Origin: an uncultured Opitutales bacterium
Lineage (GTDB): Bacteria > Verrucomicrobiota > Verrucomicrobiia > Opitutales > Intestinicryptomonadaceae
Direction: 5' to 3'
Length of the DNA stretch: 64,000 nucleotides
Assembly (NCBI GenBank): GCA_944389195.1
Contig: CALXLM010000026.1
Coordinates: 116,199-180,198 of the forward strand
A program made the position numbers and the translations under genes. The notes under the pieces were generated by a model. The model had not been told where the DNA came from and searched no databases. It saw only the letters and a list, made by a program, of their open reading frames with translations. Numbering within the stretch: position 1 is the first letter of the stretch; every line of letters begins with the position of its first letter. Shown in pieces: positions 7,704 through 15,634 of this stretch.

Positions 7704-9149
7704 TTATCTTTTCCGGCGGCGAACTGCAAAGACTACAGCAAGCACACATAAAGTCAAAGCACAGAACGATGGTTCCGGAACAGACGCCCCCGCAACGACA
7801 AAATCGGACACAGTCTCTGGATTCCAATCGACGCCATTGCCGTTAGAATCGTGAAACAGCCCGACAAACGCAGCACGCGCGTCTTTGTCGCTATCATATC
7901 CTGACATAACGACAGTTGTTCCCTCTCCGAGAACCAAAATATCGTTCACGCCTTCGGCCGCGCCTGCGTCAAATACGAAGTTTACTCTGTCACTGAGCGT
8001 CAGAGTGACGTTGTCGGCTATTTCAAATATACCGCCGTCTTTTATATCAATTGTCCCGCCGGTCAAAATGGAATCCACTGTCAATTTGGCAGAGATTTCA
8101 TGCGCCAATACTGTAAAAATTTCGCCCTCAGACAAGACAAGTCCGCGATTTGAATTGCTGTCTCCGTTGTTAAAAGAGTAAATGACCCCGTCTCCCACCA
8201 TGGAATTTTCAACGTTTCTAAACGAAACGTCGTCGATTGTAATCGTTTTTACATCGGAGGTGCCGAAATACGCCACGGTAGAACCTCTGAGATCTATGGA
8301 TTTTAATGTTTGGGTATCCGAATTTGCCCTCTGTCCCATGGCTTTGGCAAACATCTCGGCGTTAACGTTTATAAACTTAACGTCGTGGGCAATCAGCGTA
8401 TCTACCGACGTTTTCGCGTTTATGTCTATGCCGCTCCATGAATTTACTGTGGAACCGCTTATGTTTATATTTTTTACAGTATTTCCCTTTAAGCAAAGTG
8501 CCGAAGCCATCGTCGCTCCGTCGAACTCGTATCCGGCCATCGAATCGATACATCCCTTAAAGGTAGAATTTGAAAAATCGATATTTTCTACATTGCCAGA
8601 CAGCGTGACATTGCCGTCGATGGCTCCGAAGGAAACAAACGTACTGCCCGAAAAGTTTACATTTTTCAAAAAGCCGTTTGATACAACTGCGGAACTTCTT
8701 ACCGCGCTTGACGTGGCGCTGAAACTGCTTCCCGAAAAATCGACATTTTCAAGGCTTGAATCTTCCGAAATATAAAAACCGTATAAATCATAGTTGGAGG
8801 TTCCCGATATCTTCAGATTGCGAAAATCGGAATCGATAATCGAGCTTTTTTCAATTGAAAGAACGCTTGGAGCATAAGCCGTCAAACCCAACTCGGATTT
8901 CATTATCGGGAACCTGTCGGCATGGACGGTATTTACCGATACGCTTTCCATTCCGGAATAGTTTGCACCGTCCAAATTCAAGCTGCTAAATGCGGAGAAG
9001 CCCCTGCTATCCGTATAGACGCCGTTTGCGTCGTAGGAATACCCCTCACCGTCCGCTGTTGCATACTGCCATTCTTGAGCCGCCAAAATTCCCGGGAAAA
9101 AAGCCGCCATGAAAGCTGTTAAAAATATTTTTATGATAATTCTCATCAT
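7704..9149 (-). CDS. PEP-CTERM surface protein, beta-helix-like repeats
   Basis: 481 aa. Signal peptide at ~1-24 (IIIKIFLTAFMAAFFPGILA). The body is Ser/Asn/Gly-rich with loose repeats of the form NVxFSGSxF / IDFSNSTF / IDLRGSTV, consistent with a right-handed beta-helix. The C-terminus is a PEP-CTERM tag: VPEPS, a hydrophobic stretch, then RRRKR. PEP-CTERM proteins are processed by an exosortase and sent to the cell surface or matrix; no exosortase is in this window. Two adjacent ATGs exist (9149, 9146). It lies 99 bp downstream of the giant surface gene on the same strand, possibly in one operon. Confidence 0.85.
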   Translation of the reverse strand: MMRIIIKIFLTAFMAAFFPGILAAQEWQYATADGEGYSYDANGVYTDSRGFSAFSSLNLDGANYSGMESVSVNTVHADRFPIMKSELGLTAYAPSVLSIEKSSIIDSDFRNLKISGTSNYDLYGFYISEDSSLENVDFSGSSFSATSSAVRSSAVVSNGFLKNVNFSGSTFVSFGAIDGNVTLSGNVENIDFSNSTFKGCIDSMAGYEFDGATMASALCLKGNTVKNINISGSTVNSWSGIDINAKTSVDTLIAHDVKFINVNAEMFAKAMGQRANSDTQTLKSIDLRGSTVAYFGTSDVKTITIDDVSFRNVENSMVGDGVIYSFNNGDSNSNRGLVLSEGEIFTVLAHEISAKLTVDSILTGGTIDIKDGGIFEIADNVTLTLSDRVNFVFDAGAAEGVNDILVLGEGTTVVMSGYDSDKDARAAFVGLFHDSNGNGVDWNPETVSDFVVAGASVPEPSFCALTLCVLAVVFAVRRRKR

Positions 9150-9248: not shown

Positions 9249-12200
9249 TTACTTGCGCCTTCTGCATGCGGCAAATGCAAGCGAAATTGCGCCGAGCAGA
9301 GCCGCATAAACGGACGGCTCAGGAATCGCCAACGCGAAATTGCCGACTTCCCCAGTAATTGTATTCAGCGACCCGTCCTCAAGCCACGAGTCAAGCTTCG
9401 ACCATACGCCGGTTTCCCCCATATAATATAGGTTCACTCCGGACATATCCGCGTCCAAGGAGAAGCTCAGCACGACGGTTTCCTCGCTTTCATAGTTGAC
9501 ATTCCACGCCGCAAGCAGATTTGCGCCGAATACGTCGGCCGCCACAGAATCGTTCCTCACGTTCTCGCCAAAAGCGGTATCGCCTTGGGTCACTACCGTG
9601 ATTGAAGATGTGTCATCGCTGAATTTCATTGTCCCTGCGCCGGACGTCGTCGCCATGCCCATGTCGCCATAATTTGTTTCGGTGACGTATCCGTTTGTGA
9701 ACATGCCGCTTGAGGCGTCAAAAGTACCGCCGTACGCCTTCACATTCCCGAAATCCAATCCCGAAGCCGCGGCAATCTTACCCGACGAAGAATTTTTCGC
9801 TATAAGGGCAAGGGTTCCGCTGTTCGAGAAGCTAAGGTTTTCGTTTGTAAGGACAGGCTCTTCACCGACAGTCAAATGCAACGTGGCATCGCTGGAGATG
9901 CTAATTGAACTTGCTCCGAGCTTGTTCGTCACGCTCATCTCGCCCTGGTTTACCGCCAATGAACCCGTATAATGCTCCATCGACGAGTTCACGGTAAGAA
10001 TACCGAGGCCATTCTTTGCAATGCTTGCGGTGTTGTCGCTCGAAGCAATGGAGTCACGCCCGCTCGTTCCGTCGCCTATTGTCATGCTTGCATTGGAGGC
10101 TATATTAAAGTAGGCGGTTGAACGGCTTCCTTCGTCCTGGAATGAAGTGTCGTTGTACATGTACAGGAAGCCTCCATTGGCGTCGCTCGCCACGCCGTCC
10201 ACAATGGCCAAGTTCCCCGTGTTCACGATATTCTTTCCCTCTGAAACCTCAAATGTCACGTCGGCGCGGCGCGAGCCTACTGCCCCGCCAAACGCGTTTC
10301 CGGAAGCGGATGTGGCTTCTACGGTGTTATCAGTGAATACGGTATCCTTAAAGGTCATAGAACCGTTGTTGGCTTTTGCGAAACTTATTTGCACTGCGCC
10401 GCCCCATGCGTCGCTCTGCGACACGGCCTTGTTGTTCGAGAATACGGAATCCGACACAGTTATGATTGTCCCGTTTTCGGTTTGCGCATAATTGTCTCCG
10501 TAGAGAGCCCCTCCGCGCGCCATGGCGTCGCTATTTGCGATGTTGCCGTCGAATGTAGTGCCCGAAATTGTGAGGTTGCCACCATAAGTCGTGACGGCTG
10601 CCCCCGTTGTGTTTACGCCCCCGTTTCCTTTATTGCCGACAAAGCTTGAAGATTCAATTTCCATGCTGCCGCCGCTTAGATATACTATGCCTTGAACTTG
10701 GGCGGTTGTGGAGTTTGTGTTGCCTTCAAAAACCGTATTTTTAATCTGCGTATTAGAATCTGTAGAGGATATTACGGAACCGTAAACGCCATTGACGTCG
10801 CTTAAAGTGTATTCCGCGGAATTATTGGAATATTTGGAATCGGAAATCGTAAGTTGGGCGTTGTTTCGGGCTTCAACCAGAGCCAGCCTGGATCCGTATT
10901 CTCCCTGGCTTACATAGTTTTGACCCGACAAATCCGCGCCAGATATGTTGGCAGCCGAGTTGTCAACGACGGTTTTTGTCGCCCCCAACCCGTTGTTTAC
11001 GTTTATTGTGCCTTCCGAAACGTTAAGCGTTCCGGAGAAGCCCGACATCGAGCCGTTTACCGTAAGCGTACCTGCGCCGCTTTTGTTAACAACCGCCGTC
11101 GTATCCGTAGAAGCTATCGAATCGCTTCCGGCGGTACCGTCACCTATTGTCAGCGTAGCGCTTTCCGAAACGTTGAACGACGCGCTCGAAGCAGATCCGT
11201 TGTAATTTGAAAGACGCATAAATCCTCCGAGTTCGTCGTTTTTCTGCCCGTTTACGGAAACATAGTTTCCGGATATCACCGCGTCTTTTGTCACGTTAAA
11301 CTCAACATCCGTGGCGTTTGCATAAATTGCCCCACCGCCGTTTCTCGACATATCCGTCGGCGATTCAACCTCCACCGCATTATTCACAAAAGATACATCG
11401 TTAAGCACGACCTTTTCGGAAGTCGAAGTGGTGAACAAGCGCATTGCGCCGCCCTCGGCCCTCGTTTCCCCGATGGCCTTATTGCCGCTAAACACGGTGT
11501 CGCTTACGGTAAGATTTGAGCCTTCTTTGTACGATTCGTATATAATCGCGCCGGCGTTGGCTATATACCCTTCAGCCGTATTGTCGCTAAAAGTCGCATT
11601 GGAAATATCGATATTCAACGTTCCATCGCTCCAATTATCCGTCATATACATGACACCTCCGCTAATCGACGAAGTTGACCCCTCGAGCGTAGCCGCCTTG
11701 TTGCCTGTAAACGACGTTCCGTCCTTAAACTCATATTTTCCGCCGAACGCCGCGATAACACCGCCCTGAACGTTAACGGAAGTTGCGGAATTATTTGAAA
11801 ATTGCACGTTGGAGAATGTCCCCGAACTGGTTGCGCCGTTAAAGAGAATGGCCCCGCCCTGCGAATTCGGCGTGCTATTCCAAGACGCCTTGTCTCCCGG
11901 ATTGGTGACGGAAACGGTACCGTCCACGACCGAATCGGTCATTGTAAGCCGGCCGCCGTTAACCCAAATCGCGCCTTTGGTGCCTACTCCCGAGGCGAGG
12001 GAGCCGTTATGGGTTAAAGCGTTATTCTCGAATGTGGCATTGTCCAAATTTAACGTTCCGCCCGCCGCGACTTCGGCGATGGGATCGGGATAATATTCCA
12101 AATTGGACCAAGACGCCGTTTTCTGAATATTTGTCCACTTTCCGCCGTCGGAATTCAGCGTAGCGCCGCCGGCGACATTTATATCGTTTGCGCCCAACCC

Positions 12201-14381
12201 CTTGTTCGCATTCATTGTGCCTTCCGAAACGTTAAGCGTTCCGGAGAAGCCCGACATCGAGCCGTTTACCGTAAGCGTGCCTGCGCCGCTTTTGTTTATT
12301 ACCGCTTTTTCATCGCGCGAAGCGATAGAATCATACCCATCACGGCCGTCGCCTATCGTGAGCGTGGCGTTCTCGGAAATGTTAAAAGACGTGTCAGAGG
12401 AAACATTCTTTGAATTTATAAACAAGAACCCCCCTCTGGAATCGTCGGCAACCCCGTTTACAATCGCCTGGTTGCCGGCATAAGTCATATCTTTGGTGAC
12501 GTTTATGTTTACCTTCTGGTCTTGAACGGATATCGCTCCGCCCGCAACATAGCTGTCCCCTTTTGCGACGTTGTTTGTAAACGAGCTGTCGGTAATATTG
12601 ACAACCAGCGTATTCGGATTGTCCCCTCCGGCAAACACCGCGCCCCGGGCGATAGACGTCCCCTCGGATACGTTCCCTTCAAAAGTCGAATTTGAAATGT
12701 TCACAGTCGAGGGGTTTGCGCCTCCCCAGTCGTTGCCTGCCGCATATACAGCCGAACCGTCGGCACTGTCGCCCTTGACGCTATTGCCGACAAAATCGGT
12801 TTTTTCTATGCTCAAATTGGAACCGAAAGACGAAACGGCGCCACCCAACGCGTATCCGTCGGAAACCGACTTATTGCCGGTAAAGTTCGAGTCTTTTATT
12901 GTTGTCTGTTCCGAAACCGTAAGATACACCACACCCTGGCTCATCAAAGAGCCGGTGGAAATGTTCGTATTATTTTCAAAAACGGTGCCTTCTATCGTCG
13001 CGTTCGAGGAGTTTATTCCAACCGCCACTCCGTATGTGCCATTTGCAGTGCCCGTCGTGCTTACGGTGTTATTTTTAAACGAAGAATTTTTCAATGAAAG
13101 TTCGGCGTTGTTTGTGGCGTTTACGATCGCAGTCGGAGAACCGTTCGCCGCCTTTTCCAAAACGATGCCGTCGTAATTTGCGTTCGCAATATTTAATGCG
13201 CTGTTGTTGGCGTTGGCTTCTCCGCCCAGCCCGTTGTTCACATTCATTGTGCCTTCCGAAACGTTAAGCGTCCCGGTGAAGCCCGACATCGAGCCGTTTA
13301 CGGTGAGCGTGCCCGCGCCGGTTTTCGTTATCGTGGATTTAGAATCGTTTGAAGCGATGGAATCTTGCCCGGCGGTTCCGTCGCCAATGGTAAGCGTGGC
13401 ATTTTCGGCCACGGCAAACTCGGTGGACGGGGCGCCGTTCGCCTCCTCTCCGCTGTACATGTAAAGGAATCCTCCCCTAGAATCGTCGTTTTTCCCTCCG
13501 ACTACCGCCGCATTTCCGACATTTGTTATATCTTTGGTCGCGGTGATTTTTAATTGGGAATTTTCGTTGTATATGGCGCCTCCTCCCTGGTCACCGTAGG
13601 CGTTTTCGGCGTCGGTAGTCACCGATTTGTTATCGGTGAACACGGTATCCGTCACTTCGGAATTGATAGCGTTCGTATTAGCCTCCGACTTTAGGAAAAG
13701 CGCACCTCCCCTTGAGGAAGTGGAAGACTCTATCGTATTGGACGCAAACGTGCTGTCTTTTATATGCAGCACCGACGGTTCATAACCGCCCCATGTCGCA
13801 CCGCGGGCATATACCGCGCCGCCGTCTCCCCAGTCGGCCCCTTTTGCGACATTATTCTCAAACTTGGTATTTTCTATCGTCGTCGACTTGTTGCCCCAAA
13901 GCGAAAGCGCGCCGCCGGCGGAATATGAAGTTCCGCTTTCGGCTCCGGCCTTGTTGGAAATAAATTCAGAATTCTTTACGGACACGTTTTGGCTTCCGCT
14001 CGAATAAACCGTGCCCTGAGTCATGTTTTCAGATTCAACCTGATTAAAATTGAACTTTACATTGTCTATCGAAACCGTGTTTGCGGCCGTTGCCGAAACC
14101 GCAACGCCGTAAGTGCCGTTGGCGGTATTGTTAGATTTCGCATAGTTGTTTAGAAAATCCGAATTTGTAATGTTTAGTATGGAATCGGCAGTAGCCTGAA
14201 CCAACGCCAAAGAAGCTCCGTAATTGTCAGACACTACTTTTTGGCCGCTATATTCCTTCCCGTCTATATTAATTGCATTATTACCATCATTCGACAGATC
14301 TTCCGCCATTACCAATGCGCCTATGCACAAGTTAAGAAGAATTATATTTGTTATTTTTAATCCTACGTATTTATTTTTCAT
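9249..14381 (-). CDS. Giant PEP-CTERM surface protein with Pmp-like GGA[ILV]/FxxN repeats
   Basis: 1710 aa. It has an N-terminal hydrophobic signal (about 9-27) and ends in a PEP-CTERM tag (IPEPS, hydrophobic segment, CRRRK). The body is made of GGA[ILV] and FxxN tetrapeptides, more than ten and about twenty copies respectively (for example GGAVYARG, GGAIYNEN, FENN, FASN, FTDN), the pattern that defines chlamydial polymorphic membrane proteins. Four larger modules each end with a passenger-associated repeat of the type TLTIGDGTAGxDSIAS...GAGTLTVNGSMSGFSGTLNVSEG. No C-terminal autotransporter barrel is present; the PEP-CTERM tail takes its place. Likely a beta-helical adhesin (inferred). Its start faces an AT-rich interval bounded by inverted repeats and a divergent recombinase gene. 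Confidence 0.9.
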   Translation of the reverse strand: MKNKYVGLKITNIILLNLCIGALVMAEDLSNDGNNAINIDGKEYSGQKVVSDNYGASLALVQATADSILNITNSDFLNNYAKSNNTANGTYGVAVSATAANTVSIDNVKFNFNQVESENMTQGTVYSSGSQNVSVKNSEFISNKAGAESGTSYSAGGALSLWGNKSTTIENTKFENNVAKGADWGDGGAVYARGATWGGYEPSVLHIKDSTFASNTIESSTSSRGGALFLKSEANTNAINSEVTDTVFTDNKSVTTDAENAYGDQGGGAIYNENSQLKITATKDITNVGNAAVVGGKNDDSRGGFLYMYSGEEANGAPSTEFAVAENATLTIGDGTAGQDSIASNDSKSTITKTGAGTLTVNGSMSGFTGTLNVSEGTMNVNNGLGGEANANNSALNIANANYDGIVLEKAANGSPTAIVNATNNAELSLKNSSFKNNTVSTTGTANGTYGVAVGINSSNATIEGTVFENNTNISTGSLMSQGVVYLTVSEQTTIKDSNFTGNKSVSDGYALGGAVSSFGSNLSIEKTDFVGNSVKGDSADGSAVYAAGNDWGGANPSTVNISNSTFEGNVSEGTSIARGAVFAGGDNPNTLVVNITDSSFTNNVAKGDSYVAGGAISVQDQKVNINVTKDMTYAGNQAIVNGVADDSRGGFLFINSKNVSSDTSFNISENATLTIGDGRDGYDSIASRDEKAVINKSGAGTLTVNGSMSGFSGTLNVSEGTMNANKGLGANDINVAGGATLNSDGGKWTNIQKTASWSNLEYYPDPIAEVAAGGTLNLDNATFENNALTHNGSLASGVGTKGAIWVNGGRLTMTDSVVDGTVSVTNPGDKASWNSTPNSQGGAILFNGATSSGTFSNVQFSNNSATSVNVQGGVIAAFGGKYEFKDGTSFTGNKAATLEGSTSSISGGVMYMTDNWSDGTLNIDISNATFSDNTAEGYIANAGAIIYESYKEGSNLTVSDTVFSGNKAIGETRAEGGAMRLFTTSTSEKVVLNDVSFVNNAVEVESPTDMSRNGGGAIYANATDVEFNVTKDAVISGNYVSVNGQKNDELGGFMRLSNYNGSASSASFNVSESATLTIGDGTAGSDSIASTDTTAVVNKSGAGTLTVNGSMSGFSGTLNVSEGTINVNNGLGATKTVVDNSAANISGADLSGQNYVSQGEYGSRLALVEARNNAQLTISDSKYSNNSAEYTLSDVNGVYGSVISSTDSNTQIKNTVFEGNTNSTTAQVQGIVYLSGGSMEIESSSFVGNKGNGGVNTTGAAVTTYGGNLTISGTTFDGNIANSDAMARGGALYGDNYAQTENGTIITVSDSVFSNNKAVSQSDAWGGAVQISFAKANNGSMTFKDTVFTDNTVEATSASGNAFGGAVGSRRADVTFEVSEGKNIVNTGNLAIVDGVASDANGGFLYMYNDTSFQDEGSRSTAYFNIASNASMTIGDGTSGRDSIASSDNTASIAKNGLGILTVNSSMEHYTGSLAVNQGEMSVTNKLGASSISISSDATLHLTVGEEPVLTNENLSFSNSGTLALIAKNSSSGKIAAASGLDFGNVKAYGGTFDASSGMFTNGYVTETNYGDMGMATTSGAGTMKFSDDTSSITVVTQGDTAFGENVRNDSVAADVFGANLLAAWNVNYESEETVVLSFSLDADMSGVNLYYMGETGVWSKLDSWLEDGSLNTITGEVGNFALAIPEPSVYAALLGAISLAFAACRRRK
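9936..10016 (-). repeat. Passenger-associated repeat block, copy 4 (diverged)
   Basis: Encodes a diverged version of the conserved module end (GLGILTVNSSMEHYTGSLAVNQGEM). It aligns with the blocks at 11005, 12214 and 13246 at protein level but differs much more at DNA level. It is the copy nearest the C-terminus. Confidence 0.6.
11005..11085 (-). repeat. Passenger-associated repeat block, copy 3
   Basis: An 81-bp block encoding SGAGTLTVNGSMSGFSGTLNVSEGTI. By eye it differs from the block at 12214-12294 at a single base. The spacing between successive blocks is about 1.0-1.2 kb. Confidence 0.85.
12214..12294 (-). repeat. Passenger-associated repeat block, copy 2
   Basis: An 81-bp block differing by one base from copy 3. 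Such identity inside otherwise divergent modules points to recent duplication or gene conversion within the gene. Confidence 0.85.
13246..13326 (-). repeat. Passenger-associated repeat block, copy 1
   Basis: Same block near the N-terminal third of the giant protein, with several base changes from copies 2 and 3 but almost the same protein sequence (TGAGTLTVNGSMSGFTGTLNVSEG). Confidence 0.8.
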
Positions 14382-14472
14382 ATGCCTAATTCTAATGAAA
14401 ATGTTATTAAAAAATTAAATGCATATTTGAAGAATGGTATTGAGAATACTATACCACCAAAATTGCCTTAAC

Positions 14473-14492
14473 TTATTGTTATAGAACAATAA
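14473..14492. promoter_or_regulatory. Palindrome inside the candidate switch
   Basis: TTATTGTT-atag-AACAATAA: perfect 8-bp arms with a 4-bp centre. It could be a protein-binding site or a small hairpin in either leader. No regulator is assigned. Confidence 0.4.
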
Positions 14493-14571
14493 ATTATTAA
14501 ATAAGTTTTTTATATAGATAAAAAATCTAAAAGTTATTACTTATCGATTGATATATGATTATTTTTTTATC

Positions 14572-14590
14572 AAATACTTACAAAGTATTT
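14572..14590. promoter_or_regulatory. Second palindrome inside the candidate switch
   Basis: AAATACTT-aca-AAGTATTT: perfect 8-bp arms with a 3-bp centre, 22 bp before the right inverted-repeat arm. Possible operator or accessory site for the recombinase; function unknown. Confidence 0.4.
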
Positions 14591-14626
14591 TTGAATTTTG
14601 TTATTGACATTGGTATTCTCAATACC

Positions 14627-15634
14627 ATGACAGATGAAACAAATTTTGCTCAGGATCTGCTCGCAAAGAGCGGAATTTCACTTATAGATGCCGTAAGGCT
14701 AATATTAAACGCTCTCGATTCCTTCCCGCAAGGTTCGCACCTTAGCCCAATTCAGTTTTGTTCAAAGATAATAGAAACGGGCAAACGGCACATGCGCACA
14801 AAGGAAATGTCGGTTAAAGACGGGTTTTACCTGTATCTCGGCTCAAAAAGCGACTTGCGGCAAGAATCCCTGCAAAACATACGCTATCTTGGAAACAGGC
14901 TATTAAAATCAAATCCGGAGTTTGCCAACCGCAACTTTTCGGACTTGTCCGTCCTGGAATGCCAAATGTGGCTATCCGAAGGTTTTCGGACGCCATGCCA
15001 ATACAACAAGGCAAGAACAATGCTGCATGGTCTGTTTGAATTTGCAATGCGAATGGAATGGTGCGAAAAGAATATGGTTAAGCTTGTCCAACGCCGCAAA
15101 GTTGTAGAAAAGGAAATTCTACCTTTAAACATCTCGGAAACCAGGCGCCTTTTAAAAACCTCCCAAACATTAAAAAAAGGAATTTGTTTTCCCGGAACGG
15201 CAATACTTACGCTCGCAGGAATACGGCCACGCGAAGTTATGCGCTTGGAGTGGAAGGATATCGACCTCGCAGAAGGCGTAATAACAATACGCTCCAAATG
15301 CTCCAAAACGGGAGGAACGCGCCAAGTGGAAATATCGCCGGCTTTGAAGCATATCTTGGAAGACAGAAAACCTAAAATAAATTCGCATGTATGCCCCACA
15401 GATTGGAAGAAATACTGGCGCAAAATACGCGACACTTCCGGTTTTAAAGGCTGTTGGGTCCAGGACGTATTGCGCCACACATACGCGAGCTTCTTCGCCA
15501 AGCACTACCGGGACCTTCCACGCCTGCAGCTTAACATGGGACACCGCGACTTGTCGCTTCTGCGCTCGCGTTATATCAACATGCGGGGAATATCCTCCGC
15601 CGACGCAAAAATATTTTTCATACGCATTTTTTAA
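14627..15634 (+). CDS. Tyrosine recombinase/integrase
   Basis: 335 aa from the ATG at 14627; the frame is open to an ATG at 14555, but that extension (24 residues, hydrophobic) looks non-coding. Residues ~1-165 are the SAM-like core-binding region and ~170-335 the catalytic domain. Catalytic candidates are R200 (AGIRPRE), K227 (SKTGGTR), R283 (VLRHTYAS), H306 (MGHRD) and Y316 (RSRYINM). The position normally His three residues before R283 is D280. No phage or transposon genes are nearby, so it is a stand-alone recombinase beside a surface gene. Cotranscription with other genes is unlikely because the next gene is convergent. Confidence 0.88.
   Translation: MTDETNFAQDLLAKSGISLIDAVRLILNALDSFPQGSHLSPIQFCSKIIETGKRHMRTKEMSVKDGFYLYLGSKSDLRQESLQNIRYLGNRLLKSNPEFANRNFSDLSVLECQMWLSEGFRTPCQYNKARTMLHGLFEFAMRMEWCEKNMVKLVQRRKVVEKEILPLNISETRRLLKTSQTLKKGICFPGTAILTLAGIRPREVMRLEWKDIDLAEGVITIRSKCSKTGGTRQVEISPALKHILEDRKPKINSHVCPTDWKKYWRKIRDTSGFKGCWVQDVLRHTYASFFAKHYRDLPRLQLNMGHRDLSLLRSRYINMRGISSADAKIFFIRIF

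Follow-up and report, generated by a model that had tools for sequence, protein, structure and literature searches.

A probable site-specific inverton between a giant PEP-CTERM protein gene and a tyrosine recombinase gene in an uncultured Opitutales bacterium

In the genome of an uncultured Opitutales bacterium of the family Intestinicryptomonadaceae (assembly GCA_944389195.1, contig CALXLM010000026.1), two divergent genes, one for a 1710-aa PEP-CTERM protein and the other for a tyrosine recombinase, are separated by a short segment lying between the arms of an inverted repeat, and the question is what this repeat does. A preliminary description of the 64,000-nt stretch analysed here (the window; positions 116,199 to 180,198 of the contig) had suggested an invertible promoter, with a shared operator as the rival reading. 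Comparison with related genomes points, with a probability of roughly 0.8, to a site-specific inverton: the 163-bp segment at 14450-14612 would be flipped by the adjoining tyrosine recombinase, switching the surface protein on and off.

The arms of the repeat are ATGGTATTGAGAATAC and its exact reverse complement, with 163 nt between them (feature coordinates are collected in Table 1). They form the sole exact inverted repeat of at least 16 nt with a gap of 20–300 nt in the window, and repeats of that class appeared in 2 of 100 dinucleotide shuffles of the same DNA. Throughout the 2.37-Mb genome the exact 16-mer occurs in two copies, both of them the arms; with up to three mismatches allowed there are 20 matches, against six for a reversed-pattern control, so that the number of looser copies is at or somewhat above chance. 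The preliminary description, which had reported this 16-bp repeat, counted the motif standing singly before many genes as evidence against a switch, and no such exact copies were found. Each arm is near-palindromic because in its core, GTATT-GAG-AATAC, a 3-nt spacer is flanked by a 5-bp half-site on either side. As had been noted, the recombinase start codon is partly covered by the right arm, which includes the A and T of the ATG at 14627.

The same arrangement recurs among relatives. A search for two GTATT-NNN-AATAC cores 136–166 bp apart covered the 19 family genomes and a sample of 353 others from the order Opitutales. It returned 38 pairs, distributed over 14 of the 19 family genomes, and none in the 353; the reversed-pattern control gave no pairs, and a gap of 135–165 bp gave 35. 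A homologous recombinase gene adjoins 28 of the 38 pairs, and the other ten pairs are orphans. Three genera share the layout, with target genes that differ. Relatives of the recombinase in the family share 42–65% identity, often with several per genome, and they co-occur with the pairs by genome (both present in 13, neither in four, one only in two; P 0.006), the two discordant genomes being G012, with a 79-aa piece of the recombinase and no pairs, and G017, with pairs and no close recombinase. A scan of further genome contigs yielded three distant loci only, which were not used. The two switches of G017 (L084 and L085) are orphans, the best recombinase match in that genome being a 39-residue stretch of 49% identity, and they are perhaps locked or served by another enzyme. 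In another genome (G006, contig C2), two near-identical copies of switch and recombinase (L063 and L064) lie about 415 kb apart in opposite orientation, with the spacer GAT in both; the entire DNA between the copies could in principle be inverted if the two recombined.

An indication of what the arms are comes from their centres. The core has an asymmetric 3-nt centre, of which 16 kinds occur across loci, but this centre is the same in both arms, in inverted register, in all 38 pairs, and as a direct repeat in none. When arms were permuted among loci, matched spacers averaged 3.9 with a maximum of 11. Outside the 13-mer, each position agrees between the arms at 4–26 of the 38 loci, and agreement is down to background a few positions out. 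Tyrosine recombinases require identity of the spacer for strand exchange, and since locus-specific spacers match in inverted register within every pair, the arms are read as recombination sites; with a 3-nt spacer set between two 5-bp half-sites, they look like those of tyrosine recombinases. An additional idea, that the spacers serve as a barcode keeping switches apart, was discarded, as spacers coincide within genomes in 4 of 47 locus pairs, no different from the permuted mean of 3.7, which gives no sign of selection for difference.

A second conserved feature gives the segments a polarity. In 37 of the 38 loci the sequence TTGAC (TTGACA in 30) stands exactly 3 nt in from one arm, and elsewhere in the segments it was found twice in 11,750 positions. 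To describe orientation, the target was taken as the gene on the side opposite the recombinase (28 loci) or, for nine orphans, on the side of a likely exported protein; one orphan (L073), to which no target could be assigned, was left out, leaving 37 loci. The TTGAC end faces away from the target, the position referred to here as OFF, in 33 of these (26 recombinase-adjacent and seven orphan loci), including that of the window. It faces the target in three, namely L055, which has a recombinase, and the orphans L070 and L093, and one locus (L069) is not judgeable.

Direct comparison of homologous loci indicates that inversion has happened in the family. The paralogous loci L070 and L071, both in the genome G008, have flanks towards PEP-CTERM genes that are identical at 103 of 137 positions, but an alignment of their segments requires one of them to be reversed (score 170 vs 40). 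Locus L055 also appears reversed relative to its siblings, its reversed segment matching, in register, the start of the L057 segment and the last 15 nt of L056. Such contrasts come from comparing assemblies and paralogs and not from the reads of a single culture. A single orientation in all relatives, which had been put forward as the finding that would count against a switch, is thus not what is seen, given the three loci in the other orientation and the aligned reversal of L070 and L071. An attempt was also made to read orientation from N-terminal extensions in 120 listed of 1108 protein hits, of which 90 were uninformative, 17 OFF-type, 11 OFF-compatible and two unclear (P0023 and P0119).

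The TTGAC box appears to have a -10-like partner outside the segment. Sequences with at least four of six matches to a -10 element occur in 26 of 36 target flanks and in none of 37 opposite flanks; L059, where the contig ends at the site, was dropped from the target flanks and counted as a failure in the stricter test that follows. Under a sigma-70 rule of at least 9 of 12 matches with a spacer of 16–18 nt, applied to the 36 loci other than L069, which has no TTGAC, the TTGAC end joined to the target-side flank passed at 18 loci, and joined to the opposite flank at none. The three loci facing their targets have the -10-like sequences TATGAT, TATGCT and TATATT.

From sequence comparison we infer that the recombinase acts on these sites, that the conserved boxes have promoter activity, that the accessory motifs described below have a role, and that the window's own copy inverts, and a mechanism can be outlined on that footing. 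The recombinase would bind at both half-sites in each arm, and strand exchange would take place across the 3-nt spacer, whose sequence has to be the same in the two arms. In the OFF state, as assembled, the -35-like TTGACA would be parked beside the recombinase start with no -10 following it; inversion would carry it to the arm before the gene for the 1710-aa protein, and the recombination site would then separate the -35 box from a -10-like sequence beyond the segment by 16–18 bp, serving as the promoter spacer. A bending protein of the integration host factor (IHF) or HU type, and a regulator of a palindromic block upstream of TTGACA, may assist. The IHF consensus, WATCAANNNNTTR, is found in 15 of the 38 segments (shuffled mean 1.4, maximum 5), in ten of these at one fixed place 19–20 nt inside the non-TTGAC end. 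The window has a perfect match at 14568-14580, overlapping the palindromic block, which is partly conserved by column counts, and its genome has two genes of the IHF/HU family (PF00216). The chances seem about even that this is a split-promoter switch, in which only the -35 box and an upstream regulator palindrome move and the -10 stays fixed before the target, and which is used in modular fashion across the family, with the recombinase adjacent or elsewhere, to phase-vary giant PEP-CTERM/autotransporter and defence-like genes, the same design recurring with another half-site in the invertons of Akkermansia. The earlier suggestion of an invertible promoter is upheld as to the flipping element, by the reversal among relatives, and amended as to its content, the flipping part seeming to be a -35 box and not a whole promoter.

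A number of observations weigh against this interpretation. The window's own junction (TTGACA, 16 nt, CATTCT, with three of six -10 matches) fails the sigma-70 rule, as do 18 of the 36 loci, and L069 lacks TTGAC altogether. The inner segment end opposite TTGAC is TA-rich, with at least four -10 matches in 20 of 37 loci, so that the recombinase half-site may account for some of the -10 signal, and because that end shares part of the signal the -10 enrichment is not taken alone as proof of a promoter. The reversal scores of L055 are modest (32 vs 25), and the script that called it reversed also flagged L052 and L053 on near-noise scores (31 vs 28 and 28 vs 25); these two were rejected as reversed, their TTGAC ends placing both in OFF. 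The window's assembly shows one orientation, OFF, which most of the 37 loci share, and transcription of the recombinase gene in that state is left unexplained by the model. Lastly, the perfect IHF match of the window is not at the family's fixed place.

The alternative that survives best, though it is unlikely, is that a complete promoter lies inside the invertible segment, as in classical switches, and that TTGAC is a site for the recombinase or an accessory protein and not a -35 box. In its favour, the segments are AT-rich, with TA-rich sequence at the inner end lacking TTGAC as well, and the -10 outside the arm is weak in several loci, including the window. Against it, both ends recombine, yet TTGAC is present at one only, and it matches the -35 consensus of sigma-70; only on the target side is there a suitably spaced -10-like partner, and a promoter scan of the window's region in its present orientation found nothing above chance (one found vs a shuffled mean of 3.1).

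The operator reading, in which one dimeric regulator, perhaps the recombinase acting as repressor, binds both arms and controls the divergent genes with no inversion, is improbable. It was prompted by the near-palindromic form of the arms, which stands, and it draws further on their position in a divergent promoter region, where the right arm covers the recombinase start. An operator, however, puts no constraint on an asymmetric spacer, and so leaves spacers that are locus-specific and matched in every pair unexplained; the opposite segment orientations of relatives and the fixed linkage of the sites to recombinase genes also speak against it.

Very improbable is a relic or mobile element, with the arms as ends of an insertion and the recombinase as its integrase without regulatory role, for although the enzyme is of the phage integrase family and multi-copy in several relatives, the repeats enclose a short segment that does not include its gene, the layout is conserved over three genera with varied targets, and of 48 stretches with the pair pattern in a scan of viral contigs just two, both on one contig and 100% identical to loci of G006, had a matched spacer together with TTGAC. 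Most stretches in that scan lacked matched spacers, and in L102, L130 and one pair in L127 the spacers matched with TTGAC not at its place. The two exceptions (L109 and L118) are on IMGVR_UViG_2914150438_000002, which is filed as viral, and have the same orientation as their identical counterparts L062 and L061, respectively, and so add no evidence on orientation. Over the compared stretches this contig is identical to a bacterial genome of the window's genus, and it is, on that showing, host DNA or a prophage border.

Table 1. Features of the predicted switch and its flanking genes (positions in the window)
Feature	Position	Strand	Remarks
481-aa protein, PEP-CTERM-like end (VPEPS, hydrophobic stretch, RRRKR)	7704..9149	-	Open reading frame; C-terminus by eye
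1710-aa PEP-CTERM protein, autotransporter-type repeats, predicted target	9249..14381	-	Start codon 55 bp from left core site
CATTCT, predicted weak -10 for surface gene	14431..14436	-	3/6 matches; 16 nt from TTGACA after inversion
Left (target-side) arm	14434..14449	+	Core GTATT-GAG-AATAC at 14437-14449; core common to 38 family pairs
Predicted invertible segment, 163 bp	14450..14612	.	Non-coding in favoured gene model; relatives' homologous segments in opposite orientation
IHF-like site, one mismatch	14469..14481	-	19 nt inside left arm, the family's fixed position
Imperfect palindrome TCAAATACTTACAAAGTATTTTTGA, candidate regulator/accessory site	14570..14594	.	Similar block in column counts of 37 segments
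TTGACA, predicted -35 box, OFF position	14604..14609	+	3 nt inside right arm; TTGAC there in 37/38 loci
Right (recombinase-side) arm	14613..14628	-	Core 14613-14625; final 2 bases are A, T of recombinase ATG
Tyrosine recombinase, 335 aa, predicted invertase	14627..15634	+	PF00589, E 5e-13; homologs adjoin 28/38 pairs

The identity of the two flanking genes, given earlier as a Pmp-like PEP-CTERM protein and a tyrosine recombinase, was confirmed by profile matches. The 1710-aa protein carries TIGR02601 autotransporter repeats (E 2e-15), a PATR match slightly below cut-off, and a C-terminus of IPEPS followed by a hydrophobic stretch and RRRK, which scored above cut-off with TIGR02595 (PEP_CTERM) in a genome search. 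In the recombinase, R200, K227, R283, H306 and Y316 are invariant in 13 aligned sequences, which were those kept from 38 given and include one different, 24% identical recombinase beside L020. The enzyme is single-copy in the window's genome, where one other match is 26% identical over part of the protein. An alternative in-frame ATG at 14555 would place its first 24 residues within the segment; the start at 14627 is favoured because the ATG lies exactly 1 nt past the site in 25 of the 28 recombinase-adjacent loci. A terminator-like stem-loop occurs at 14656-14674, within the start of the recombinase gene and 27 bp past the ATG (one found vs a shuffled mean of 0.1). On the other side, the 481-aa gene follows the 1710-aa gene after 99 bp, on the same strand, and is possibly co-transcribed with it from the same promoter; its product had no Pfam or NCBIfam match at 1e-3.

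Among related switches, the target was PEP-CTERM-like in 19 of 31 judgeable loci, six loci being cut by contig ends; outside the window such ends were recognised from a PEP motif close to the C-terminus and not from a profile. In L054, L064 and L065 the PEP-CTERM-like protein begins 450–520 bp from the site, with a shorter open reading frame between. The 12 other judged targets include an autotransporter (L067), a protein with a sub-threshold outer-membrane-barrel match (L068) and WavE (L076), and five have no assignment, among them L083, whose neighbours lay outside the scan. Four switches stand before genes resembling those of anti-phage defence: a dynamin pair with LeoBC/LeoA models, matched by the second gene (L053:5601-9590), a Ser/Thr kinase with PD-T4-6 and mad6 models (L069:7620-10238), a PDC-M57B match (L057:473-1243) and a sub-threshold TIR-like protein (L055:3080-3838). 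It could be speculated that phage pressure is part of the selection on these switches.

Paired GTATT-NNN-AATAC sites whose spacers match, with TTGAC set 3 nt in from one arm, form a signature that finds likely phase-variable surface and defence-like genes from assemblies alone, and a recombinase family becomes tied to probable sites in two groups of the class Verrucomicrobiia. The proposed splitting of a promoter, with the recombination site as promoter spacer, is a testable mechanism that may explain Akkermansia invertons too. No account of switches in this family, or of a split promoter, turned up in a literature search, which is not proof that none exists.

Several known switches share parts of this design. 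The fimS element of Escherichia coli, with FimB, FimE and IHF, has in common tyrosine recombinases, short arms, IHF sites and a surface-structure target, but it differs in its length of about 314 bp, its 9-bp arms, an internal promoter and the use of two recombinases. In Bacteroides fragilis, the tyrosine recombinase BF2766/Tsr19 flips promoter segments of surface-related operons, adjacent or distant (IVp-I and IVp-II), but according to PMC4747536 these carry a Bacteroides-type promoter with its own -7 on the invertible DNA, and the sites and phylum are others. The pdcB switch of Clostridioides difficile (PMC9286219), 174 bp long and bounded by imperfect inverted repeats of 19 bp, occurs in both orientations and gives ON/OFF expression; its promoter is reported near the centre of the element, its recombinase is not identified in that study, and it again belongs to another phylum.

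The preliminary description had likened the arrangement to that of gut Bacteroidetes, whereas the nearest known relative found is the Akkermansia inverton. A loose form of the Akkermansia motif CGGATT..AATCCG, which PMC13343947 quotes from Jiang et al. 2019, was searched across 387 genomes of the phylum and had matches in 50. Among the 23 genomes of a single genus in the class Verrucomicrobiia, 12 had at least seven matches per strand, one had 2–3, four had one and six had none; we infer from its motif that this genus is Akkermansia, and its genomes are called Akkermansia-like here. Twenty regions were chosen from listed places in five of the 12 site-rich genomes, and 18 were kept after L189 and L193, which had no full pair within the gap limit, were dropped. 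All 18 pairs have matched spacers and gaps of 133–155 bp, with TTGAC 2–3 nt inside one arm in 14, and one comparison (L195 vs L201) shows flanks alike and segments opposite. Ten of the 12 site-rich genomes were tested for the window's recombinase, and all ten encode full-length relatives, with best hits 39–42% identical. An attempt to match published A. muciniphila inverton coordinates onto one Akkermansia-like genome (G469) was abandoned, there being no inverted repeat at those coordinates.

The window's element thus resembles Akkermansia invertons in its two half-sites, matched 3-nt spacer, gap of about 130–170 bp and TTGAC just inside one arm, and its recombinase has relatives in the Akkermansia-like genomes, where they may act on CGGATT sites. 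It differs in its half-site, GTATT/AATAC as opposed to CGGATT/AATCCG, and in belonging to another family of the class, where the recombinase gene usually starts 1 nt from the site; the search with the Akkermansia pattern included two genomes of the window's family, G000 and G007, and neither had a match. Reports on A. muciniphila describe an 'inverton group 138' that is enriched for regulatable PEP-CTERM genes, with PEP-CTERM and autotransporter neighbours, and one of its members near autotransporter genes changed orientation over mouse generations (PMC11892184); the orientation of the cps1 inverton tracks capsule ON/OFF (PMC13343947). Because the site motif differs, the window's switch is not filed in group 138. 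It is a variant new among Verrucomicrobiota invertons, one that would work like those of Akkermansia and forms a sister type in another family, outside group 138.
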